Virus record (IMG/VR): IMGVR_UViG_3300044648_000351
Span: 1-33,948 of that record
Strand: one strand, 5' to 3'
Length of the DNA stretch: 33,948 nt
From: a virus
A program made the position numbers and the translations under genes. Below, piece by piece: positions 6,107 to 20,318 of the stretch (its first letter is position 1; the number at the start of each line of letters is the position of its first letter). Below the pieces are notes generated by a model. It did not search any database, was not told the origin of the DNA, and saw nothing but the letters and a program-made list of their open reading frames with translations.

Positions 6107-6472
6107 TCACCCCACTTCCGGAATCGCATGCTTACCGAGGCGCAACAGCCGATCGATGTCGGGGTCGAAGGACGGCACCCGCGCGCTTCCCATCTCTGCC
6201 GCGGCCACGAGCATCTGCGGTGAGCGTCGGCGAGTGTGCCAGCGCTTCGCGAGCATGACCGTCCCGAGCTTCAGGTTGAAGTTCGGCAAGGGCAGCGTCG
6301 AGGGCTGACCGGTGAAGTTGAACCGGCCGGAGTGGATGCGCTCGACGAACTCGACGGCCGCGTCAAAGACACGCTCCAGACGAAGACGCTCCGCTTCGCT
6401 GAGGTCCTCAGCATCGGTTGCGTCTTCGTTCAGCTCGTTGACGAACTCGTCGAGCGTCACCCACCCCGGCAT
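6107..6472 (-). CDS. Head-tail connector protein
   Basis: 121 residues, mostly helical (LDEFVNELNED, EDLSEAERLRLERVFDAAVEFVERI) with a central loop (FNFTGQPSTLPLPNF). This matches the helical-bundle head-tail connector family (gp6/gp15-like) that docks under the portal. It sits two genes after the capsid region. ATG at 6472, four bases after the preceding stop. Confidence 0.7.
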   Translation of the reverse strand: MPGWVTLDEFVNELNEDATDAEDLSEAERLRLERVFDAAVEFVERIHSGRFNFTGQPSTLPLPNFNLKLGTVMLAKRWHTRRRSPQMLVAAAEMGSARVPSFDPDIDRLLRLGKHAIPEVG

Positions 6473-6475
6473 GGC

Positions 6476-6895
6476 TCAGCCTCGCTGCTTCAACTGCTCG
6501 ACGGCCTGTTCGTGCCGGCGGGCAACCTCGTCGCGCTCCCGCTGGCGTTCCGCCCGAATGAGCTCATCCTCCGGCACGTAACCGCCCTCGACCGGTACGA
6601 CCCACTGCGGGCCGCCGGGGCCTTCGGCTCGGGGTGCGCGCTCGCGCCCCTCATCGTCCTCGACGGCGCCGAGCACATCGACACCCTCCGGCGCCTTGCG
6701 AACCTCCGGCTTCTCGACGGCCTGATCGACGATCGCGATCAGCTCGTGTCGGTCCTTGATGTGCTCCAGGTCGCCTTCGATCGAGCGGCCCGTCTCCTGC
6801 GCGGCGAAGGCGCGCCACGCTTCCTTGTCGGAGCCCGGACCGCTCACCGGAGGACGGCTCAGCGGCTTGTTCTGAGTGGACAGTGCGTCAGTCAT
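6476..6895 (-). CDS. Hypothetical protein of the capsid-neck interval
   Basis: 139 residues, highly charged, with helical segments at the N-terminal half (HIKDRHELIAIVDQAVEKPEVRKA) and C-terminus (DELIRAERQRERDEVARRHEQ), and a Gly/Pro linker. Not recognised by family. ATG at 6895 follows the capsid stop by 16 bases and has a GGGGAG site. Position suggests a virion or head-completion role. Confidence 0.7.
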   Translation of the reverse strand: MTDALSTQNKPLSRPPVSGPGSDKEAWRAFAAQETGRSIEGDLEHIKDRHELIAIVDQAVEKPEVRKAPEGVDVLGAVEDDEGRERAPRAEGPGGPQWVVPVEGGYVPEDELIRAERQRERDEVARRHEQAVEQLKQRG

Positions 6896-6911: not shown

Positions 6912-8177
6912 TTACGCGCCGGCGTTGTCGTCGTACGCGAACTTGCGAACGCCGTCGGTGCGCGTGCACGCGAAGGCCTTGTAGCCCCAGATCGCGATGT
7001 CGACGAACGCAACGCGGTACTCGAAGTCGAGACGCTGCGGAGCCGAAGCCCAGCCGTGGACGTCCTCCCGGTTGAAGATGTAGGAGTCCGACTCGACGTT
7101 CGTCGTGTAGGGCAGCGCCCACGCCGGACGACCGGCCAAACCGGCGACATTCAGCGAGGCCATGAGCGGACCGGCCGAGCCGTCGGCGTTCTGCGGGCCG
7201 AGGATCGGCAGGAGCTTGCGCCCGTCGGCGTCCTTCGCCTGCGACAGCTTCTTGTAGAGACCCTTCTCCAGGAAGAAGTCCTGGAAACGGAAGCCACCTC
7301 GGATGAAGTGAAGATCCACGATCGCGCCCGTGACCTCGTCCACCAGGACGTCGTCCTCCGCGCCGTCGGTCAGCGTGATCGTGGCGACCGTGAGGCCTTC
7401 GAGGAGCGACGCGGCGCCCTGCTCCAGGGCCTCATCCCACGCCCGGACCATCTGACGCCACAGGATCGTGGAGAGCTGCGGGTTACCGCCCTGGTCCCAC
7501 GCCTCGCGCGTGATCTCGACCTTGCCGGAGACCGCCGAGGGGGTGATCGTCTGCGACGTGGTGGTCAGCGCACCCGGCGTCGGCTCGGTACCCTGAACGT
7601 GGTCGCCGACCAGACCGGAGCTCGTGTTGAACTTCGGCAGGACGAACGGCGTGTTATCGGCGATCGAGCCCTTCTTGATCGCGTCCCAGATCGGCGTGGG
7701 GTACTGGAGCTGATCCACGTACATGTCCGGCCGGTTGATGCTCGGGTTGATCGACGCGACGTTCGACGTGGTGACGGCGAACTCCGCGACCCGGCGGTTG
7801 TACTCCCGGTCGGAGAAGTACTCGCCGAGGAACTTCTGCGCGCGGTTCAGCGCTTCGTAGTCCTTGTTCTTGTGCGCGGCGACCAGGTCGGAGCTGAAGT
7901 CGTGGTCGCCCCGGATGCCGTCGAACCGGTAGCAGGGGGCTTCCTTCACCTCGAACTGAGCGACGCGCTTGCCGGTCGCCGGATCGACGGCCTCCGGGCG
8001 CTGCTGGGCCTCGATCAGGTCCTTCAGGGACTCCTGGAAAGCCTCGAACTGAGCGCCCATCGCCTCCGTCGCAGCGGTCACTCCCGCCGTCACAGCGGTG
8101 CTGAAGGCCGCGGCTGCCGTCTCGCTCAGTTCGAGCGTGCCGACGCCCCCGCCTTTGTTCTTGTCCTCGTCGGCCAT
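6912..8177 (-). CDS. Major capsid protein, internal start within the head ORF
   Basis: 421 residues from the in-frame ATG at 8177 (MADEDKNKGGG). AAAGGA lies eight bases upstream, the same site that precedes the 5242 gene. The N-terminal ~90 residues are Ala-rich and helical (FEAFQESLKDLIEAQQ), like the delta/scaffolding domain of HK97 capsids. The rest shows typical capsid features (TTSNVASINPSINRPD, TPIWDAIKKGSIADNTPF, SGKVEITREAWD). This start allows capsid subunits to be made in excess of portal, which stoichiometry needs (about 12 portal to several hundred capsid subunits). Confidence 0.75.
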   Translation of the reverse strand: MADEDKNKGGGVGTLELSETAAAAFSTAVTAGVTAATEAMGAQFEAFQESLKDLIEAQQRPEAVDPATGKRVAQFEVKEAPCYRFDGIRGDHDFSSDLVAAHKNKDYEALNRAQKFLGEYFSDREYNRRVAEFAVTTSNVASINPSINRPDMYVDQLQYPTPIWDAIKKGSIADNTPFVLPKFNTSSGLVGDHVQGTEPTPGALTTTSQTITPSAVSGKVEITREAWDQGGNPQLSTILWRQMVRAWDEALEQGAASLLEGLTVATITLTDGAEDDVLVDEVTGAIVDLHFIRGGFRFQDFFLEKGLYKKLSQAKDADGRKLLPILGPQNADGSAGPLMASLNVAGLAGRPAWALPYTTNVESDSYIFNREDVHGWASAPQRLDFEYRVAFVDIAIWGYKAFACTRTDGVRKFAYDDNAGA

Positions 8178-10040
8178 CGGCCCAGTCCTTTCGTTTCGTG
8201 AAGCGCGCACGGACGTCAGCCGCGCATCGTCGAACGACGGTGCCGCGGTAAGCGCACACCCAGTCAGTTGTCCATTGTGGACGTCGCGCACGAAGTCGTC
8301 TCCGGCTTCGGTGATCGACCACGACTCGGCGCCGGCGGGGAACGAGACCTCGATCGAGAACCCGTCCTTCACCTTGTCCTCGGCGTTGATCAGCGCCTTG
8401 TCACCCTCGTCGCCGCGGCCGATCTTGAACGTACCCATCAGCCCGCGCGACGTTGACCACACCTTCTGGGCATAGCCGACGGCGTTGCGCCGGTCGTGGT
8501 CGAGGTTCAGCTTGATGCGCGTGGTGTCGGTCCACTTCAGCGAGTCCTTGCCGAAGCGCCACTTCGCGAAGGTGCCGGAGTTGACCTTGCCCCAAGGCAC
8601 CATGAGCCCGGTGATCGTGCGCTTGTCCAGGTCGGCACTGAAGAGCTCAGCGTCATCATCGTCGACCGCGAACGTCAGCGTGACGTCGTCGGTCTCCGTC
8701 TCCATGCCGTTGACCCGGCTGAACGCCGCGCTGACGGGCGCCGTCGCTGCGACCTTGGCGCGACGTGGGGCGAGCTCATCCGGCGCCGCAGGCGGCTTCT
8801 GTGCGGCCGTCCGCTGCTCCTTGGCTCGCCGCTCCAACTCGGGGTTCGGATCGAGTCCTTCCACTTCGCGCACCTCCGCGATATCCATCGCGCCGATCTC
8901 GACAGCGATCTTGTGGCACGCCCAGCGCGTTGCCGGATCGGCCTTCAGGTAGTTGTTCAGGAAGAACGAGACAGCGTGCCCGCGGCGCGTCACGTCGTTC
9001 ATCGAGAGCCGGTCAGTAATCGCGCTCATGTACATCGAGAACACGTCATTGATCCGGTCCTGCCGGCGATCCACGCCGTTCTGGTAGGTGCGCGAGGTCG
9101 TCGAGACGTTGAGATCCTCGGCGTCGAGGCCCATCGCGTTCGCCACGCCGATGATCGCGTTCTTCAGGATGTCGATCAACTGGAGTTCGACGGGAGACAG
9201 CACGTCGACTTGCTTCAACTCCATCGAACCGGGCACGTAGCCGGTGGTGTTCGTCTTGCGTGCCTTGTGCCACGCGTCCAGCAACTCGACGATGTCCGTC
9301 TTGCTGAGGGGGTCAGCGTTCGGGTCCGGCGTGAAGTAGTCCTGAGCTCGGGTGTTGTCGGCGTACCGGACTCCCGAGTTCTGGAGCAGAAGTAGGTGCC
9401 GGATCGAGCGCGCGGCGGCACGAAGCACGCCGGGGTTCGGTGAGTCGAACCGGATCAGCACCGGGCGGCCGAGGGAGTCGCGCACGGGCGTCGGAACACC
9501 CTCGACGTACACCGTACCGACGGGGAGCTTCTGCTCCGAGGGCAGCGTACGAAGACCCTTCGCGTGGTCGCTCGGGGGGTTCATGGTGACGGTGTTCGCG
9601 TCGAGCTTCTCGGCCGACGTGGGGAACCCGGCCGAGTCCCACGCAGTACAACGCCACCAGGCGTAACCCTCGAAAACGAGGTCCTCGACCGTTCCGGCCA
9701 TCGTCACGACGTTCGGTGTGTTCGGGTCGATTTGCTTCAGCAGGTTGTTCTCGACGCGCTTCCCTTTGCCATCCCGTACGTGCATGGGGAGCGTCGAGAA
9801 CGAGCAGAGAAGGTTCCGGCCGCGCAGAACGACGTCTGCGGAAAGGGCCATGCGCTTCGTGACAGGCTGCTCGAACTGGTATTCCGGCCGCTGCGTTGCG
9901 GCGATCGCGGAGTCAATCGGCGTCGGGATGTCGGTAGAGAAACGGATGGAGGGCTCCGGCGCGTCGTCTGACGCTCCAGGAGCCCTACCCATCCACCCGA
10001 ACCAGTCGCCAAGGATGCCCACGCCGAGAACGATACGCAC
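6912..10040 (-). CDS. Portal-protease-major capsid in a single ORF
   Basis: 1042 codons without a stop carry three head proteins. Residues 1 to ~430 are a HK97-type portal (FSTLPMHVRDGKGKR, FEGYAWWRCTAWD, IIGVANAMGLDAEDLN). Residues ~460-615 are a U35-like prohead protease: DKRTITGLMVPWG, LDHDRRNAVGYA with the candidate catalytic His, and DGFSIEVSFPAG with the candidate Ser. Residues 622-1042 are a HK97-fold capsid protein with a helical scaffold-like delta domain at its start. The ORF start is GTG at 10040, with no clear ribosome site; GTG at residue 7 or ATG at residue 17 are alternatives. The capsid part has its own strong ribosome site, so both fused and separate forms may be made. Portal-protease and protease-capsid fusions are known; all three in one frame is unusual. 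Confidence 0.88.
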   Translation of the reverse strand: MRIVLGVGILGDWFGWMGRAPGASDDAPEPSIRFSTDIPTPIDSAIAATQRPEYQFEQPVTKRMALSADVVLRGRNLLCSFSTLPMHVRDGKGKRVENNLLKQIDPNTPNVVTMAGTVEDLVFEGYAWWRCTAWDSAGFPTSAEKLDANTVTMNPPSDHAKGLRTLPSEQKLPVGTVYVEGVPTPVRDSLGRPVLIRFDSPNPGVLRAAARSIRHLLLLQNSGVRYADNTRAQDYFTPDPNADPLSKTDIVELLDAWHKARKTNTTGYVPGSMELKQVDVLSPVELQLIDILKNAIIGVANAMGLDAEDLNVSTTSRTYQNGVDRRQDRINDVFSMYMSAITDRLSMNDVTRRGHAVSFFLNNYLKADPATRWACHKIAVEIGAMDIAEVREVEGLDPNPELERRAKEQRTAAQKPPAAPDELAPRRAKVAATAPVSAAFSRVNGMETETDDVTLTFAVDDDDAELFSADLDKRTITGLMVPWGKVNSGTFAKWRFGKDSLKWTDTTRIKLNLDHDRRNAVGYAQKVWSTSRGLMGTFKIGRGDEGDKALINAEDKVKDGFSIEVSFPAGAESWSITEAGDDFVRDVHNGQLTGCALTAAPSFDDARLTSVRASRNERTGPMADEDKNKGGGVGTLELSETAAAAFSTAVTAGVTAATEAMGAQFEAFQESLKDLIEAQQRPEAVDPATGKRVAQFEVKEAPCYRFDGIRGDHDFSSDLVAAHKNKDYEALNRAQKFLGEYFSDREYNRRVAEFAVTTSNVASINPSINRPDMYVDQLQYPTPIWDAIKKGSIADNTPFVLPKFNTSSGLVGDHVQGTEPTPGALTTTSQTITPSAVSGKVEITREAWDQGGNPQLSTILWRQMVRAWDEALEQGAASLLEGLTVATITLTDGAEDDVLVDEVTGAIVDLHFIRGGFRFQDFFLEKGLYKKLSQAKDADGRKLLPILGPQNADGSAGPLMASLNVAGLAGRPAWALPYTTNVESDSYIFNREDVHGWASAPQRLDFEYRVAFVDIAIWGYKAFACTRTDGVRKFAYDDNAGA
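8186..8191 (-). promoter_or_regulatory. Ribosome binding site for internal capsid start
   Basis: AAAGGA on the minus strand, eight bases before the ATG at 8177, inside the reading frame of the portal-protease-capsid ORF. No comparable site precedes the Met codon near 8705 at the start of the protease part, so only the capsid appears to have separate initiation. Confidence 0.7.
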
Positions 10041-10081: not shown

Positions 10082-11710
10082 CTAGGAAATGTGCGACGGA
10101 AGCACGATTCCCGTAGGAGTGCTGGTCACGGGCATGGTGCGTGCGAGATACGACGCGCCGGCGGCAGCGTAGTAGCCGTCACAGTGCCCGTCGTCCTGAC
10201 GGGCAACGACCCATCGAGCGCCGACCATGAGCTTGTCGGCCCCTGGCACGTGCACGTTCAGCAACGGGTCGTCCGGATGTGCAATCAGCTTGTCGCGCAC
10301 ATCCTTCGCGAAGCCCATGCACACCGAAGACGTCTCACCGCGCAACGGCTCGACGACCGTGCGCCGCGGAAGCCACGCCGGACGCTTGCCGACCATCTTG
10401 AACTCGCCGGTGCCGGCGTCGACTTCAGCCCCGAGCAACGTGGCCGCCTGCGATGCCGCCGGACCGCCGGGGAACCACCCGATAGCCCGCGGGTTGATCA
10501 GCTTGACCTGCGCGCGGAAGCCTCGCGCGAAGTCCCTGATCTCGCTCGCGTCCCACGAGCGCACAACCTCGACACGCACCCGATCGTCCGGCAGGACCGC
10601 CGCGGCGACGAGCGTCGCATGCTGCTCATCGGCCGAGAAATCGAAGCAAAGAACAATACGATTCCTGAAAGCCGAGAGATCGCCGATATCCTTGCACGCA
10701 ATCCAATCTTCCACCAGCACGGCCGGGTCTGCCGCCTCGACCTTGATGCACATCTTCTCAGTCTTGAATCCAACGAGTTTCTTACCGCCGATGCGCATAG
10801 CCGTTGCCGCTTCGGCAAGTAGATCGTCGCTATCGTTGCCTCGGCGATTCATGTTCGGATTAGCCTGCGCTAGCTCCATAATGTCATTCGGTTTGGCATC
10901 GGGGTTCGCGCTGTACTCGATGAGGCCGACGCGCGGGTCCCCTACGCCTTCTTCAATGAACTTGATCGCTTCGTCACGCCAGTCGTTCAGCACAACGGAC
11001 TTATCGTTTCCTGCGTTGCTGAGTCCGACGATCATCGAAGACCACGGCACGGTGGTTGTCGGCTCGGAGGCATCCCACGCGCTGTAGTCGTAATGGTGCC
11101 GCAACTCGTCCAGCACGAGTCGATCGTTGGTCTGCGAGCGCCCGCCCTTCTCATTCGCAGGCGCGATCTTGTACTCGCTGCCCGTCTCTAGACGCCGCTC
11201 TTCCTCGTCGGCACGCCAGAGCACCACACCGCCGTTCACCGTCTTGACGGCGCCGCGGTGCGCGATCTCGGCGTACAGCTCCGGCCGGCGCTTGGCGAGA
11301 ACCTTCGCCTTCTTCCACGCGTCCTTCGCGTACTCCAGCTTCGTGCTCGTGCCGAGAATTTGCGGCACCCGCTGAACGAACATCCAATAGAGCGTGAGCA
11401 CGACGCACAAATGTGTCTTGCCATTCTGCCGAGCGACGAGAATGAGCAACTTCTTGTAGCGCGTGCGCCCGTCGGGCAGAAGCTCGAACCCATGAATGAC
11501 CGTCCACTCCTGCCATGGGTCCAGCGGCGCGTCAAGATCCTCCCTTGCGAAATCGATGATGTCGAACCCGAGGGAGGTTTCCGGCGTGAGCTCTCTAAGC
11601 GGAGGGGTCCACAGACGAGGAACCGTGAGCCCGAGCACTTTGCTCTCTGGCGGTAGCTGCAAGCCTCCGCCGTTCAAGGCTAGTGAGCTCTGGTTTTCCT
11701 GAACTAGCAT
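10082..11710 (-). CDS. terL: Terminase large subunit
   Basis: 542 residues from ATG at 11710. It translocates DNA into the prohead and cuts the concatemer. Visible are Walker A VARQNGKT (residues 92-99), Walker B DRLVLDE (196-202), and nuclease-domain acidic motifs: Asp in VLCFDFSADEQHATL near 360, and DGHCDGYYA near the C-terminus. The segment PRLWTPPLRELTPETSLGF at the N-terminus is typical of actinophage large terminases. GTG at 11638 (KVLGLTVPRLW) is an alternative start that shortens the overlap with the small subunit from 116 to 44 bases. Codon use around 10620-10900 is more AT-rich than in neighbours. Confidence 0.95.
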   Translation of the reverse strand: MLVQENQSSLALNGGGLQLPPESKVLGLTVPRLWTPPLRELTPETSLGFDIIDFAREDLDAPLDPWQEWTVIHGFELLPDGRTRYKKLLILVARQNGKTHLCVVLTLYWMFVQRVPQILGTSTKLEYAKDAWKKAKVLAKRRPELYAEIAHRGAVKTVNGGVVLWRADEEERRLETGSEYKIAPANEKGGRSQTNDRLVLDELRHHYDYSAWDASEPTTTVPWSSMIVGLSNAGNDKSVVLNDWRDEAIKFIEEGVGDPRVGLIEYSANPDAKPNDIMELAQANPNMNRRGNDSDDLLAEAATAMRIGGKKLVGFKTEKMCIKVEAADPAVLVEDWIACKDIGDLSAFRNRIVLCFDFSADEQHATLVAAAVLPDDRVRVEVVRSWDASEIRDFARGFRAQVKLINPRAIGWFPGGPAASQAATLLGAEVDAGTGEFKMVGKRPAWLPRRTVVEPLRGETSSVCMGFAKDVRDKLIAHPDDPLLNVHVPGADKLMVGARWVVARQDDGHCDGYYAAAGASYLARTMPVTSTPTGIVLPSHIS

Positions 11711-12611: not shown

Positions 12612-13598
12612 TCAGGCACCCCCACCAGGGCCCAGGTTCACCACAGCTACCTGACCAGGCAGCGTCACATGACCCATGGTGTTACCACTGCCGTTGCTCC
12701 TGTACCTGAAGACCAACGTCACCTGACCAGCAACGATGTCCTCTGCTGCCACCACCCAGTCCAGCTGTCGCAGTACCCGCGTACCTGCTGCTGCCAGGTA
12801 CAGGCCACCGTGCCCAACACCAAGGGGCACAAGGGTTCCGCTGCTCAGGTGCCTGATCGGATCACCCAGCGCATCGAGCGAGGCCAGATCACCCACGGAC
12901 TCCTGGTCGCTCTGGTGGTAGAAGGCAGGGCTCCAGCGCAGGACGTCACCCACCTCGGCAGGGCAGGGCTCCGAACGGTAGGCCACCGGGCACGTGGTCC
13001 AGTCGCCTCCGTCGCCGGCGGGCCCGAAGGTCCCCGTGATCCCGTTCTTCACGGCGTAGGCCTTCAGCGTGCCGTCCTGACCGTCGGCGCCCGAAGCGCC
13101 AGCAGGCCCTTGCGGCCCGGCAGCACCTACGCTGCCCGCCGGTCCCGTTGCTCCGGTGGGTCCGGCTACCCCCTGGGCTCCCGTGGCGCCAGCGGGGCCC
13201 TGAGCGCCCTGAGGCCCTCGGGGTCCACGCACCTGCATCACGCCAGGCGCGAGCTCGGAGATGATCGGGCTCAGGAACGGGAGCTGAAACGGCCCGGTCG
13301 CGTCCTCCGGGATCACGACGGGGTACGGCGAGGCCTTCCACGCGTCGGTGTCGACCTCGACCAGCGGCGCCCAGTACCGCGGGCTGATCGAGTCGGATCG
13401 CGGGTCCGGGATCGTGACGGACCCGAAGCCCGCACCGTCGAGCACGACCCAGGCCTGCGGCACCGGGTCGCCGTGCACCACGCCGTCGTCCTCCGAGCTG
13501 ATGACCGGAGGCAGCCACACCCGGAACCTGCCGATGGCCGCCGGAGCGTCGGCCGCCATGCCGTGCTTCAGCGTGAGTTCGATCGTGACCATGTCCAC
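12612..13598 (-). CDS. Collagen-like virion (tail fibre-like) protein
   Basis: 328 residues. After a ~120-residue beta-rich N-terminal domain comes a run of about 17 Gly-X-Y triplets (starting RGPRGPQGAQGPAGATG) that should form a collagen-type triple helix. A globular C-terminal domain of ~150 residues with many Cys, Trp and Gly follows. Trimeric proteins of this kind serve as tail fibres or capsid fibres in many actinophages. The GTG at 13598 has GGGGGA six bases upstream and lies just after the HNH stop. The location, between HNH and terminases rather than among tail genes, is unusual. Confidence 0.85.
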   Translation of the reverse strand: MDMVTIELTLKHGMAADAPAAIGRFRVWLPPVISSEDDGVVHGDPVPQAWVVLDGAGFGSVTIPDPRSDSISPRYWAPLVEVDTDAWKASPYPVVIPEDATGPFQLPFLSPIISELAPGVMQVRGPRGPQGAQGPAGATGAQGVAGPTGATGPAGSVGAAGPQGPAGASGADGQDGTLKAYAVKNGITGTFGPAGDGGDWTTCPVAYRSEPCPAEVGDVLRWSPAFYHQSDQESVGDLASLDALGDPIRHLSSGTLVPLGVGHGGLYLAAAGTRVLRQLDWVVAAEDIVAGQVTLVFRYRSNGSGNTMGHVTLPGQVAVVNLGPGGGA

Positions 13599-14524: not shown

Positions 14525-14792
14525 CTCTTGATCGGTTCCGTGTGTCTTTCGAGACCCGGTCGTATCGATACGTGTCTCCGGGGTCCTCCGGCTGCACACC
14601 TGCACGCAGCATGGCCGCGCGCAGACGCTCGGCGTACCACTCGCGCATGCCCTCGGCCATCGCCTCGTCGGAGTAGTGGCCGTCCAGCACCAGCACGATG
14701 TCCCAGCTGTGCACGGCTTCGTTCCACACCCGACGCACGCCGTGCCACCCACGCCGGCTGCACAGGAACTCACCGGGCGTCTCGTCGCTCAT
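14517..14792 (-). CDS. Hypothetical 91-residue protein
   Basis: Contains an aromatic/basic N-terminus (FLCSRRGWHGVRRVWNEAVH), a beta strand (WDIVLVLDG) and a helical Glu/Arg-rich part (DEAMAEGMREWYAERLRAA). ATG at 14792 overlaps the primase stop by four bases, which supports it as the last gene of the replication block. Family not recognised. Confidence 0.7.
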   Translation of the reverse strand: MSDETPGEFLCSRRGWHGVRRVWNEAVHSWDIVLVLDGHYSDEAMAEGMREWYAERLRAAMLRAGVQPEDPGDTYRYDRVSKDTRNRSRGL

Positions 14793-16780
14793 TCGTCCTC
14801 CATCACATCGTCTTGCACAGGCACACCCACGCTCTTGGCGTACCGCAGGATGGCAGCACGCAGCACATCGTTCTTCGCCTTGACGTTGAGCTCCTTGCGC
14901 AGCGTCGGCGTCAGCGCGCGCACCGTGGCCTTGCTCGTTCCACCGGTCGCGTAGTACTCCTTGATGATCTCGACGATCTGCATCACCCGTGCCTCGGTCT
15001 CAGCTCCAAGGGCTGAATCGAAGAACGACATTCCGTCGTTCTGCCTTCGGTTCGAGGGCTCGACCACCAACCCGCCGCCGTATCGAATGAGCTTCAGCTT
15101 GATCTGTTTGGCTCGCTCGATATAACGTTGCTTCGAATTGGTGAGCGTGAGCGTCCCTGCATTATCCGTCGTCAGCATCAGTTCGGTGTCCATGCCGTTG
15201 TTCGCCGCAGTGGACCCGCGTGCCCGGGTCTTGTCCTCCCAACCGGTGTGGTGCAGCAGGATAGGTCCGGCGCCCGTTACACGAATGAGTTGATTCAAGC
15301 GCAGAATCATCATGTTGCCGTGGTCGTTGTCGTTCTCTTTCAAACCGCTGGTGATCGCGCCTTGCGTATCGAAGATGACGTGCCGGTACTCGTCGCCGGC
15401 GATCGAGGCGCAGAAGTCATCCCACTCACCGTGTGCGATCTGGACAGCGTCAGGGAGCAGGCGTACGCCAGTGTTGCGCTGGTGGTACTCCCGCCAGGCG
15501 CGCATGCGAGGTCCGAAGCTCGGAGCACCCTCGGCGGCCACGAACAGCACGCGCCCCTGAGCCACGTCGCGCCCCTGCCACGCCATGCCGTTGGCGATGT
15601 GCGCCGCGAGGTCGAGCGCGAGCCATGTCTTGCCGACGTTCGAGGCCGCCGAGAGCCGGGTGATGCTCCGCGAGAGCACCAGCCCTTCCACCGTGTAGTC
15701 CGGTGTCGGGATCGCCTCGGCCTCGAACTCATCGAGCGTCGCGAAACGGCGCGCTACCTCACCAGCCGGCACGGCGCTCGCAGTGCCCGCCCATCCGGCA
15801 AGGCCAGCAGGTGAAGCACCGTCCAGCACCGCGGGTAGAGAGGTGCCCGGTGAGGGCGTGGCACCACCTCCCGAGAAGAACAGCTCGGCGGGACTGAGCT
15901 CGGAGTCCGACACCACGACGTCCGGCACGGCCTTCTCGATCGCGCTGTGCAGCTTCGCGAGGTCGTCGGCGTCCGGCACGGCACCCGCCGCCTCGAAGGC
16001 GTCGAGGAACCCCTGCTCGGCGGTCTCGGGGCTCAGGCGCGCGAGGCGCGTCGTGACGGCGAGGATCGAACTGTGCGCCTCCCCGCCCCACCCGATGCGC
16101 TGCCAGCGGCGCACGGAGTCCGTCAGCCCCGACACCGCGGCATCCCACTCACGACGGGCCTGTGACATCGAGACCCGCCGGGGCGTCTCGCTGGCCGCCG
16201 TGCGCCGGATCTCCAGCACACGGGCCCTCAGCAGCCCGCCCGAGCCGTCCTGAGCGAGCTGGTCGGGCGAAGGCAGCACCGGACCCTTCGGCCCGACGAC
16301 CCACCGGTACTCGCGCGGCACCCCGTCGACCTTCGACGCCCTGACCGTCGGCGCGATGAACGCGAACCCGCGGCCCTCACCGGCCATCGTGCCGCTCTTC
16401 ACGTCGATGCCGGCGGCCACCTTGCCGTCCAGCGATGGCACGCCGAGCGTCTTGACGAAGTGGTGTCGCCCGCCGGACGGTGTCTCGGCGGTCAGGTAGC
16501 TGTGAGGCATCGCCGCGCCGAGGTCGGCCTCCGAGCCTCCGCTCCTCGGGTCGACGTCCACCAGGTCGAACGTGTGCCCGGTGACGGCGCACAGCAGCAT
16601 CCCCGGCCGCCACGCATCCACCACCGAGACATCGGGCTCGTTGGTCTCCCACCCGAAGGGCAGGCGCCACCCGGTCCGGGTCGTGGGGTCCGGGTGCGCG
16701 ATGAACATCGGCATCCCCGCCTTGACGAGCATCCGGGCGATGTCGAGCGCCTGTTCCTGCTGCATGCTGATCTCATCCAC
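14789..16780 (-). CDS. Prim-pol / RepA-like primase-helicase
   Basis: 663 residues. The N-terminal ~200 residues resemble the bifunctional primase/polymerase fold: LVDVDPRSGG (near residue 75) gives the metal-binding acids, and TPSGGRHHFV (near 105) the conserved Gly-Gly-x-His. A ~150-residue linker follows. The C-terminal part is a RecA-like ATPase of the RepA/RSF1010 type, with Walker A AASNVGKT near residue 378, Walker B VIFDTQGA near 470 and ILLHHTGWEDKTRARGS near 510. Together they would unwind DNA and make primers. GTG at 16780 has GGAGG seven bases upstream and overlaps the previous stop by 8 bases. Confidence 0.9.
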   Translation of the reverse strand: MDEISMQQEQALDIARMLVKAGMPMFIAHPDPTTRTGWRLPFGWETNEPDVSVVDAWRPGMLLCAVTGHTFDLVDVDPRSGGSEADLGAAMPHSYLTAETPSGGRHHFVKTLGVPSLDGKVAAGIDVKSGTMAGEGRGFAFIAPTVRASKVDGVPREYRWVVGPKGPVLPSPDQLAQDGSGGLLRARVLEIRRTAASETPRRVSMSQARREWDAAVSGLTDSVRRWQRIGWGGEAHSSILAVTTRLARLSPETAEQGFLDAFEAAGAVPDADDLAKLHSAIEKAVPDVVVSDSELSPAELFFSGGGATPSPGTSLPAVLDGASPAGLAGWAGTASAVPAGEVARRFATLDEFEAEAIPTPDYTVEGLVLSRSITRLSAASNVGKTWLALDLAAHIANGMAWQGRDVAQGRVLFVAAEGAPSFGPRMRAWREYHQRNTGVRLLPDAVQIAHGEWDDFCASIAGDEYRHVIFDTQGAITSGLKENDNDHGNMMILRLNQLIRVTGAGPILLHHTGWEDKTRARGSTAANNGMDTELMLTTDNAGTLTLTNSKQRYIERAKQIKLKLIRYGGGLVVEPSNRRQNDGMSFFDSALGAETEARVMQIVEIIKEYYATGGTSKATVRALTPTLRKELNVKAKNDVLRAAILRYAKSVGVPVQDDVMEDE

Positions 16781-17174
16781 GGTCGGGCCTCCGGCGTTCA
16801 GCTTGCTCGAGCTCGAGCAGTCGGCACGCGAGGTCGCCGTACGGCTCGAGCCCGCGCCTCACGAGGGTACGTTCCGGCGGCGCGGGCCACATCGCCCTGA
16901 GCATGGCCGCGTGCTCGGCCCCCCAGTCGGCGCACACCACGTCCGGCCAGTGGTGCAGAGGGCAGGTACGCGTCCCCGCGTCGTACACCCACTCGATCCT
17001 CAGTGGCTCCAGCCTCGGATACGTGTTGTCGATGAAGTCGAGCCACGTGTCCAGGCACCCCACGCACACAGGGACGACGCGGTGCGCGTGATCGGTGACG
17101 TTGGCGACAGCGATCCCGTGCTCGGCCCCCTTGTAGGCCGACCAGCCGCAACGGACGTAGTGGGCTTGGCTCAT
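16773..17174 (-). CDS. Hypothetical Cys-rich protein
   Basis: 133 residues from ATG 17174, which overlaps the previous stop as ATGA; a longer upstream reading frame is out of context. Cys residues occur in YVRCGWSAYKG, CVGCLDTW (a C-x-x-C pair) and RTCPLHHWPDVVC, so zinc binding is possible. Lies between another Cys-rich protein and the primase. Not recognised; may be a replication accessory factor. Confidence 0.7.
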   Translation of the reverse strand: MSQAHYVRCGWSAYKGAEHGIAVANVTDHAHRVVPVCVGCLDTWLDFIDNTYPRLEPLRIEWVYDAGTRTCPLHHWPDVVCADWGAEHAAMLRAMWPAPPERTLVRRGLEPYGDLACRLLELEQAERRRPDRG

Positions 17175-17704
17175 GACGACAGCACCGCCGCTCTCTTGGC
17201 GTAGGCCTTGCGGCACGACACGTCGCAGTACTTCTTGTGCGTCGCGTGCGCGAACGACGCGACCATCTCCGTACCGCAGTTGAGGCACGGACCCGCGGGC
17301 ACCTGGCGCCACACCGGCTCCTTCTTCGGCGGGCGGCCTTGCTTCGTCGCGCCGGCGCACCCCTCAACGTGAGGGGTCGTCACATAAGGCAGCGTCTCGA
17401 TACCCCCGCGGCCGTTGCCGACCTCGCGCGTGACCACGTTGCCGTCCTCGTCGAGCACCTCCGTCGGCACGGCGCCGCAGTGCACGCACTTGACGAGCTC
17501 CCGCAACCGGCGCAACTGCTCGGGGGTGTAGCGCTCCGATGTCCGGCCGCGCAGCTCCGAGAGCACGCCGACCTCATCGGAGGCCGCCGAGCCCGAGCAG
17601 ATGCGGCAGTGTCGCGCGCCCGTGCTCCTGTTGATGTACGTGCTCTCCGGCGTTCGCGGGTGCCCGTTGCGGCACACCTCTTGCCTGCCAAGGATTGCGG
17701 TCAT
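17171..17704 (-). CDS. Multi-zinc-ribbon protein
   Basis: 177 residues with several Cys pairs: CRNGH followed by HCRICSG (residues ~11-37), KCVHCG (~72-77), PCLNCGTEM (~140), and KKYCDVSCRKAYAKRAA (~160). The last part resembles the short zinc finger with SCRKA.YAKR seen in phage and transposon proteins. Nucleic-acid binding is likely. ATG 17704 has GAAGGA seven bases upstream. It sits in the DNA polymerase-primase operon. Confidence 0.8.
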   Translation of the reverse strand: MTAILGRQEVCRNGHPRTPESTYINRSTGARHCRICSGSAASDEVGVLSELRGRTSERYTPEQLRRLRELVKCVHCGAVPTEVLDEDGNVVTREVGNGRGGIETLPYVTTPHVEGCAGATKQGRPPKKEPVWRQVPAGPCLNCGTEMVASFAHATHKKYCDVSCRKAYAKRAAVLSS

Positions 17705-17707
17705 CGT

Positions 17708-18088
17708 TCAGTCCTTCCACGGGGCGAGCGGGACGGTGGTGTACTCCATGCGCGCCAAGCCGACACCGTGGCCGAACGGCGTCAGGCGAACGGGGCTCAT
17801 CGAGACGACGGACTCCTGATCATTCATCGCGTCCTGCATGACCGCGCGCTTCAGGTGCTCGAAGATCATGCCGTCGCGCGCCGAGCCTGCCAGGTCGTCG
17901 GCCGTCGAGTACGGCACCTCGGCGTAGCGACGCTTCGCCTGCGAGCTGTGCCGGCGGACGGCCTCCCACAGGTGCGGGATCATCCCCTTCGAGACGACGA
18001 GCTGCCCCATGATCACGCGTCCGTCGTACTTGTCGACGTCCATCGGAACAGTGATCAACATCGGTTCGTACCCGTGCCTTGCGTCCAT
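17708..18088 (-). CDS. Hypothetical protein downstream of DNA polymerase
   Basis: 126 residues from ATG 18088, chosen because GAGGAG lies eight bases upstream. A GTG at 18097, overlapping the polymerase stop, has the site too close. Mixed alpha/beta (MLITVPMDVDKYDGRVIMGQLVV, IPHLWEAVRRHSSQAKRRYA) with no recognised motif. Operon position suggests a replication-linked role. Confidence 0.7.
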   Translation of the reverse strand: MDARHGYEPMLITVPMDVDKYDGRVIMGQLVVSKGMIPHLWEAVRRHSSQAKRRYAEVPYSTADDLAGSARDGMIFEHLKRAVMQDAMNDQESVVSMSPVRLTPFGHGVGLARMEYTTVPLAPWKD

Positions 18089-18093
18089 TGTGG

Positions 18094-20175
18094 TCACTCC
18101 TCATCATCGAGATCGGGCAGGCCGTCGGCGCTGAACTCCGTCGGTTGCTGCATCCACGTCTTGCCTTCGATCACCGCGTCGCACTTCAGCGTGACCCCGC
18201 GGTACGTGATCGTCATCGCCTCTTCGAGCGCGAGCCGTGCGGGCTCCGCCATCCACCGCGGCACCTCCAGCATCAGCTCGTCGTGCAGCGGGAATCGGAA
18301 CGCCCACGTCCAGCCGCCGTGATTCAGCCGGTGCATCGCGAGCTTGAGCAGATCGGCCTGCGTCCCCTGCGTCTTGCCGTTGAGTCCCTTGCGGGACGGC
18401 CGGTTGCGCAGGAACAGCGAGCCGTCGGCCGAGACCCCGAACCGGTCCCACAACGGGACCTTGTGGCCTGAGTCGAGGTCGAGGACGGCCGCCTGGTTGT
18501 ACTCGTCGGCCTTCGCCCAGAAGACCGGGTAGGCGCCGTGCCACGTGGCCAGCGTGCGCTCACCATTGATGTCCAGCAACGCCAGGAGCTCGGCGGGGAT
18601 GTTCTGGCCGAGTGTCCACTCCAGCTTCGCCGCGCCGCCGCCGTAGCAGCACAGCAGCCACCCTGCCTTGCCGTTCTGCCGCATGAAGTAGTGGATCGTC
18701 CCCGCGGTCTTGCCGTACCGGCGGTCGTAGCCGTGCGGGCACGTCACCGGGTCGTACACGCCGTAGACCATCTCGGCGATCTTCGAGTTGATGTCCCCTT
18801 CGAGCAGATCCCGGAGGTAGTCGAGGTCGCCGGTCAGTGCGGCCATGGTGAACGGCTCGCCCTGCTCGAAGTCCGCGGTCACCAGCACCCAGCCCCGGCG
18901 GCTCCGGACGGCGGCGCGCACCCTCGGGTCCTTCTTCGGCAACTGCTGGACGGGCCCCGAGCTCGGCGTCTTCTGCGCCGACATCCTCGTGGTCACCGTG
19001 CCGTTGGCGCGCACCGACGTGTGCATCGCGCCGTCGCCGAACGCGCAGGCGTTGACCATCGGATCGACGTACGCCGTCTTGAACTTGCCGGCACGGCGCG
19101 TGGTGCTGATCGTCTGCGCGAGCTCGCGGACCTTCGCGTTCTCGTGCTGCGACAACGCCTTCAGCGCGTCCTTGTCCCAAGACTCCTTACGCACCACAGA
19201 GCCATCGTCCTGCCGCACCTCCTTGACGACAGGCGAATCGATGCCGCGCGACTTGAACGCGTGCCCGACGGCCGGACCGGAGGCCTTCTCGCCGATGCCG
19301 TAGGTGGCCAGCAGTCCGGCGTTGCGCTCCAGCAGATCGGCGAACTGAGCCTGAAGCCACAGGGCGTACGGCGCGTCGATCTGCATCCCCGGAATCCGTG
19401 CCTGATCGAGCATCCATTGCTCGACGAGAGCAGCCTTCGCCCGCGGCCACTGCCCCCGGTTCGTGAGGTGCGCGCGGCACAGGTTGAAGTACCGGAGGCC
19501 GTAGATCGCATCAAGCCCCGCGTAGACCGCGAAGATCTCGTGTGTCGGGTCGGCGTGCTCGAAACCCCAGGCCTTCGGCAGTTGCTTGCCCGCGCGGTGA
19601 CCCTTCGGCGCCTGCTCCTTGAACCACTCCTCAAGCCGCGTCTCCGCGTTGTGCAACGCGGGGCCGAAGTACAGCTCCGTGTTGGGCTTCAGGCCCTTCA
19701 GCCTCGGGATTCGTGGGTCGATACCCTTGCGGCTGCTGACCGTGCGGGGATCGAACATCGCGCCGACCACCTGCGAATCCATCACGTGCGGTGTCTCTTG
19801 CCCGAGGCGGATGGGGCTCTCCGTTCCGAGGTTCCAGCGCGGCAGCCCTCGGTGCGCGAACGCGATGTCGTTCTCGCTGAAGTGCGCCACCCACGCGTCG
19901 TGCCGATGGATTGCGTACGAAGCGAGCTCGCCGACTTCCTCGCGCACCACGTTCGAGTCGGTCACCACGACGAAGGCCTGATTCTCGTCGCCGAACTGCG
20001 CCGTGCGCGAGAAGAACCCGGCGTGCCACGGGTCCCGTGCGTTGGTCTCCAGGTCGAGACCGTTCACCTGACCCTGCCGACGATCGAGCCACGGGAACAC
20101 GTACTGCTCCATGTCACGGGCCGTCGTCACGACGTGGATGAACGCCTCGGCCTCACGGACCTCAATCGTCCTCAT
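18094..20175 (-). CDS. DNA polymerase, family A, with 3'-5' exonuclease
   Basis: 693 residues from ATG 20175 (ATGA overlap with the upstream gene); a GTG three codons earlier is possible. The N-terminal proofreading domain has GLDLETN (near 43), the Asp pair partner near 100, and YAGLDAIYG (near 225). Polymerase motif A is LVTADFEQGEPFTMAALTGD near 430, keeping the catalytic Asp and the later Glu but with a changed middle. Motif B-like is RQNGKAGWLLCCYGG near 495. Motif C is PLHDELML near 630. Phage replication enzyme, encoded with primase/helicase. Confidence 0.95.
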   Translation of the reverse strand: MRTIEVREAEAFIHVVTTARDMEQYVFPWLDRRQGQVNGLDLETNARDPWHAGFFSRTAQFGDENQAFVVVTDSNVVREEVGELASYAIHRHDAWVAHFSENDIAFAHRGLPRWNLGTESPIRLGQETPHVMDSQVVGAMFDPRTVSSRKGIDPRIPRLKGLKPNTELYFGPALHNAETRLEEWFKEQAPKGHRAGKQLPKAWGFEHADPTHEIFAVYAGLDAIYGLRYFNLCRAHLTNRGQWPRAKAALVEQWMLDQARIPGMQIDAPYALWLQAQFADLLERNAGLLATYGIGEKASGPAVGHAFKSRGIDSPVVKEVRQDDGSVVRKESWDKDALKALSQHENAKVRELAQTISTTRRAGKFKTAYVDPMVNACAFGDGAMHTSVRANGTVTTRMSAQKTPSSGPVQQLPKKDPRVRAAVRSRRGWVLVTADFEQGEPFTMAALTGDLDYLRDLLEGDINSKIAEMVYGVYDPVTCPHGYDRRYGKTAGTIHYFMRQNGKAGWLLCCYGGGAAKLEWTLGQNIPAELLALLDINGERTLATWHGAYPVFWAKADEYNQAAVLDLDSGHKVPLWDRFGVSADGSLFLRNRPSRKGLNGKTQGTQADLLKLAMHRLNHGGWTWAFRFPLHDELMLEVPRWMAEPARLALEEAMTITYRGVTLKCDAVIEGKTWMQQPTEFSADGLPDLDDEE

Positions 20176-20318
20176 GAGAGCCACAATCCGACGAGCACGC
20201 CGAACGAGAAGATCATCAGAATTCCCGCCACGACCGCCACCCGCACACCACGCCGTGTCTTCCCCACAACGGCCATGTAGTACGTCATGCCCTCCGGCAC
20301 GTCGATAGTCCCTTTCAC
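20172..20318 (-). CDS. Small single-pass membrane protein
   Basis: 48 residues from GTG 20318 (GTGA overlap with the previous stop), or 42 residues from GTG 20300, which has AAAGGG nine bases upstream. A positively charged segment (VGKTRRGVRV) precedes one hydrophobic helix (AVVAGILMIFSFGVLVGLWL) at the C-terminus. It carries the peptide PEGMTY, also present in the RusA-like protein. Function unknown. Confidence 0.6.
   Translation of the reverse strand: MKGTIDVPEGMTYYMAVVGKTRRGVRVAVVAGILMIFSFGVLVGLWLS

Follow-up and report, generated by a model that had tools for sequence, protein, structure and literature searches.

A virus contig carries portal, prohead protease and major capsid domains in one uninterrupted reading frame, and the best model overall is a single head-core gene with two nested products, to which we assign a probability of about 0.7. 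The window analysed here comprises positions 1-33,948 of IMGVR_UViG_3300044648_000351, and coordinates refer to this window. How tailed phages limit themselves to a single portal vertex in each head, and how the protease gets inside it, are long-standing questions. The gene presents a conserved natural arrangement: portal, protease and capsid would be made as a single chain, with a supply of extra free capsid built into the same gene.

One reading frame with three head domains

The portal-protease-capsid ORF (6912..10040, minus strand) comprises 1042 codons, has GTG as its first codon, ends with TAA and contains no internal stop; the same frame stays stop-free upstream as far as 10178. It is placed between the terminase large subunit gene immediately upstream (10082..11710, minus strand; PHROG 9, E 1e-60) and two head-tail connector genes immediately downstream (6107..6895, minus strand; PHROG 6587, a weak match at E 0.0025, and PHROG 5938, E 3.6e-13). 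Upstream of the head genes, the minus strand at 12612-13598 and 14789-20184 encodes a collagen-like tail fibre protein, an AAA ATPase and a family A DNA polymerase. None of the window proteins scanned was recognised as an integrase.

We compared the ORF with that of L001, a separate viral contig 98% identical to the window, which holds the same frame (1041 aa). The two differ at 171 nucleotides, 143 of them at third codon positions, and pN/pS is 0.16 for the protease and ~0.05 for each of portal, portal-protease linker and capsid. The architecture is shared by 46 non-redundant loci. Because of this shared frame with its third-position bias and low pN/pS, and because of the 46 loci, the three-in-one frame is real and is not a product of chance or sequencing error. 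An assembly or sequencing artefact that took out stop codons or frameshifts is refuted by the independent L001 contig and by the 46 loci, which come from metagenomes and cultured strains; we found no support for it and give it next to no weight. An earlier note on this DNA had described the uninterrupted 1042-codon frame correctly and had considered that homologues with separate genes might expose it as an error; instead, the frame is conserved over a clade. What required correction was the strand, which is minus, and the start, for which GTG codon 7 (10022) is better supported. Separately, synonymous divergence between the window and L001 falls from ~0.21 to 0.08 over the protease and its joint (8120-8650), which could reflect recombination or constraint at the nucleotide level.

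Profile searches and structure prediction on the individual segments recovered all three domains that the earlier note had proposed, namely a portal, a U35-like protease and an HK97-type capsid. The portal domain of the HK97 family spans residues 81-395 (8856..9800, minus strand; PF04860, E 1.9e-17, above the cut-off), and its AlphaFold2 model resembles HK97-family portals in Foldseek (3kdr, E 3e-15). The TIGR01537 score of this part is under the equivalog cut-off. The prohead protease domain follows at residues ~465-615 (8196..8648, minus strand; AlphaFold2 pLDDT ~80). PHROG 2263, a protease-capsid fusion family, matches residues 465-1037 (E 8.8e-31). A profile search gave no direct PF04586 match for the window's own protease sequence; most relatives match S78/proheadase_HK97 profiles, with 33/47 matching Peptidase_S78 (PF04586) and 37/47 the HK97 proheadase model TIGR01543. 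The two putative catalytic residues named beforehand, His515 in LDHDRR (8496..8498, minus strand) and Ser562 in DGFSIEV (8355..8357, minus strand), occupy near-invariant and invariant columns of the family alignment, respectively. Judged by these profiles and the conserved His and Ser, the protease part belongs to the S78/U35 family of prohead serine proteases.

The HK97-fold major capsid region covers residues 622-1042 (6912..8177, minus strand; PF25209, E 1.3e-7; AlphaFold2 with Foldseek, E 2e-12). Full-length AlphaFold2 prediction with 11 sequences modelled the capsid poorly, hence this part was refolded alone with 44 aligned relatives. The resulting model has an HK97-like core (pLDDT 80-95), and its best Foldseek matches are the D3, phiXacJX1 and HK97 capsids (1ohg, E 2.5e-12). 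Disordered stretches and a 38-residue helix precede the core. By analogy with HK97, this N-terminal helix (residues 641-678; 8007..8120, minus strand) is a candidate delta-type scaffold domain that would be lost at maturation. The mature capsid is predicted to begin beyond a disordered stretch at residues ~747-766 and to retain ~275 aa.

Start sites of the two predicted products

Exactly at the protease/capsid joint lies a second start. A Shine-Dalgarno sequence, GAAAGGA (8186..8192, minus strand), is found 8 nt before an in-frame ATG at codon 622 (8175..8177, minus strand), from which a free scaffold-capsid of 421 aa is predicted. An internal start with a Shine-Dalgarno just after the protease is present in 46/46 fused ORFs, with ATG in 40 and GTG in 6, and it lies within 16 codons of the protease end in all except L107, where it is at +18. 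The best start site at this joint ranks at a median 2nd percentile relative to equal-sized windows of the same ORFs (KS p 2e-29). The site of the window's own family is middling, at -5.9 kcal/mol and the 10th percentile within its ORF in L001. Residues around the internal start appear unconstrained, with pN/pS of ~1 in several divergent pairs. Shuffling of synonymous codons gave a combined p of 5e-5 and a median p of 0.25 for the Shine-Dalgarno; it thus appears moderately stronger than the encoded amino acids predict, lending modest support to selection at the nucleotide level.

The protease joint served as a control. A Shine-Dalgarno energy of -6 kcal/mol or lower was found in 3/46 ORFs in the control window before the protease, versus 39/46 at the capsid joint. 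Since there is a start signal at the capsid joint and none at the protease joint, it is the capsid, not the protease, that has its own start, and the protease is apparently produced solely in fusion with the portal. We considered an independent protease start at Met446 (NGMETE) and rejected it, as this residue is Thr in L001 and there is no start signal at this place across the clade. Two loci, L016 and L018, depart from the rest of the clade: their portal/protease joint (stop-to-stop ORF, codon 454) carries an additional ATG with a strong Shine-Dalgarno, AGGAGG-8-ATG.

The conserved internal start probably makes abundant free capsid. The same internal Met and Shine-Dalgarno are seen in most of the isolated phages with a two-way protease-capsid fusion. 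The idea that portal and protease are covalently linked to some capsid subunits needs a qualification that had been missed: with a Shine-Dalgarno start exactly at residues 621/622, most of the capsid could be made without any fusion partner.

A different signature, likewise overlooked before, marks the first start of the ORF. The likely full-length start is GTG codon 7 (10020..10022, minus strand; VGILGDWFGW), which aligns with the MG-x-W N-terminus of homologues. It has no Shine-Dalgarno and is preceded, 7 nt upstream, by a putative -10 box TATCGT (10030..10035, minus strand) that matches TANNNT, a candidate promoter for a leaderless mRNA. With the start codon in each locus picked among candidates, TANNNT lies 6-7 nt before the first start in 35/46 fused ORFs, a strict match being absent in 11/46; the background is 1/2680 for internal in-frame start codons and 59/15593 for start-like triplets of any kind. 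First starts of the fused ORFs mostly lack a Shine-Dalgarno. The portals of relatives with separate genes mostly have a Shine-Dalgarno-like site, and three such members of the same clade (L072, L077 and L105) retain TANNNT. In mycobacteria, TANNNT serves as the -10 motif and transcripts are commonly leaderless, as for a quarter of the M. tuberculosis genes with a mapped start (PMC3898074). The motif suggests that translation of the long product begins on a leaderless mRNA.

Distribution and history of the fusion

Relatives were collected with TerL as bait, because the divergent alignments A1 and A2 offered no conserved stretch for the search. This gave 13 viral contigs and then 80 viral and 79 bacterial-genome loci, which were scanned with the three domain profiles. 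A portal query against viral contigs had recovered only the same contig, and a short-pattern search of bacterial genomes for the query protein P0001 gave no match. Loci were selected for portal and protease in one frame, the presence of a capsid not being required. Removing redundancy from the 58 locus entries with a continuous portal-protease ORF left the 46 loci above, most of which share 32-55% identity over the ORF. A capsid is also present in 43/43 of those ORFs that are not cut by a contig end. The homologue survey thus places the frame in 46 loci spanning two actinomycete families, with cultured-bacterial hosts in Micromonospora, Salinispora, Asanoa, Amycolatopsis, Prauserella, Labedaea, Actinophytocola and Saccharomonospora. 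The group thus consists of phages of soil actinomycetes and includes prophages of Micromonospora, Salinispora, Amycolatopsis and Prauserella.

In the portal tree, the 46 fused rows need 4 state changes, against a mean of 28 for shuffled labels. The fused loci thus form essentially one portal clade, and the fusion is the rule in one portal lineage. Four members of the clade (L037, L072, L077 and L105) have a separate portal gene, therefore the fusion is not essential. The portal stop codon shares an ATGA overlap with the following start at L037 and L072, and also at L135, which lies outside the clade; changing a single base could therefore merge or separate the portal and the gene after it. In isolated relatives, phages of Arthrobacter, Gordonia and Microbacterium, the portal is separate and the protease and capsid are fused; in more distant loci, portal, protease and capsid are three separate genes. 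Among 50,697 records searched, no isolated phage covered 80% of the three-way query. The earlier note had called a three-way head fusion rare, and this holds among cultured phages, the relatives found there having a separate portal gene. Its account was sound on domains, frame and rarity; it was incomplete in lacking the internal capsid start and the finding that the fusion is the rule of a clade, not a lone oddity.

We used the portal and protease trees as the frame for this history. The TerL tree was rejected for the purpose, as TerL swaps between head modules: the terminase nearest to that of the window (L028) adjoins separate head genes, which indicates that terminases swap freely between fused and unfused modules. 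The terminase tree also contains a clade of 16 relatives (L116, L117, L132, L041, L045, L047, L048, L056, L067, L069-L071, L074, L076, L079 and L080) in which no such portal was recognised on the available stretch, some of the contigs ending early; their head genes may belong to another family. Between L019 and L021, synonymous divergence is 0.10 over the portal and climbs to 0.35-0.41 over the protease and capsid. This jump suggests a recombination breakpoint within the fused gene, and hence that modules still swap although fused. Among the database records, OR067381.1 (Pseudomonas phage Hadban) and MH834594.1 (Arthrobacter phage Adaia) show identical match positions and near-identical scores in the head region, and the Pseudomonas host label may reflect a mislabelled or contaminated record.

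A model for head assembly and its relation to known systems

Tailed-phage heads contain about 12 portal subunits and several hundred capsid subunits. This ratio bears on the first of two alternatives to the two-product gene, an obligate polyprotein in which all capsid comes from the full chain, the protease cuts everything, and the internal Shine-Dalgarno and ATG are a relic of an ancestral capsid gene. Such a polyprotein would fit the single frame and a protease acting in cis, and the encoded amino acids do explain part of the Shine-Dalgarno. However, its output of portal and capsid would be 1:1, and the internal start has been kept in 46/46 loci at mostly 32-55% identity while the flanking residues are free and ATG and GTG alternate. 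We regard it as unlikely. The other alternative, to which we also give little credence, is an incidental fusion: a portal-protease and a separately started capsid would do the work, and the C-terminal capsid of the long chain would be tolerated read-through that is cut off at once. The existence of the internal start, the long and variable joints and the split versions within the same clade are all compatible with this, yet a stop could arise at the weakly constrained protease/capsid joint and all 43 non-truncated ORFs remain open there; isolated two-way phages likewise hold protease and capsid in frame. Both alternatives explain less of the conservation pattern than the two-product model does.

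The two-product model builds on direct observations: the three domains in one conserved frame, an internal start that is conserved together with its Shine-Dalgarno, the lack of a protease start signal, and the -10-like box at the first start. We propose a promoter shortly after the terminase gene, which would place the mRNA 5' end on the start codon or within a few bases of it, giving a leaderless transcript. Initiation at the first codon would yield the full portal-protease-capsid chain, of ~113 kDa, as the minority product, while initiation at the internal Shine-Dalgarno and ATG would yield the free scaffold-capsid, of ~45 kDa, as the majority product. Full chains and free capsid would co-assemble via their common capsid domain. 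Each of the twelve portal subunits would thus bring along a tethered protease and capsid, and together they could nucleate a single vertex of the shell, with the protease thereby already within the prohead. The protease would then cut the linkers (~416-470 and 611-640) and take off the N-terminal capsid scaffold helix. How much of each product is made, the assembly by tethering and the cleavages are inferred from the biology of HK97 and lambda, and cleavage by the protease is plausible from what is known of its family. More tentatively, at somewhat less than even odds, the scheme can be taken further: a single leaderless chain would deliver portal, protease and one capsid, the nested Shine-Dalgarno start would give the surplus capsid, the tethered capsids would nucleate the unique vertex, and the two modes of initiation would set the portal:capsid ratio. 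If true, the problems of one portal per head and of protease delivery are addressed genetically in a lineage of actinomycete phages.

Searches of the open-access literature found no published portal-protease-capsid fusion, only the two-way kind, and NCBIfam includes a two-way fusion model, while no three-way model was matched there. Gene callers are likely to label such genes merely 'portal protein' or 'capsid protein'.

Comparison with known head modules indicates which elements are shared. In HK97, portal, protease and capsid are three separate genes, and the capsid carries a delta scaffold domain. The locus described here agrees with HK97 in the families of its portal and protease and in the fold of its capsid, and its capsid too has an N-terminal helical domain; it differs in encoding them in one frame instead of three genes. 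The nested protease-scaffold genes C/Nu3 of phage lambda have an in-frame internal start that gives a shorter, more abundant C-terminal product. The likeness is the nested in-frame start in one gene, recognised here from the conserved start and ribosome-binding site; the shared part is the scaffold in lambda, neither portal nor capsid, whereas it would be a scaffold-capsid in the fused gene. With the leaderless mRNAs of mycobacteria (PMC3898074) the gene shares the spacing of the TANNNT -10 box, from which transcription would begin at the start codon; it differs in belonging to a phage head operon, with a transcription start predicted from the motif.

Also close are the two-way fusions of small Arthrobacter (cluster AN), Gordonia and Microbacterium phages (PHROG 2263, NF045541), in which a homologous protease and capsid are in frame with the same joint. 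A 'fused protease-capsid' has been published for small phages including Arthrobacter cluster AN (PMC5513430), in a report whose consulted passages make no mention of an internal start. An internal-start capsid has probably been overlooked in many such published protease-capsid 'fusions'. In the two-way phages the portal is a separate gene, whereas the fused gene described here includes it.
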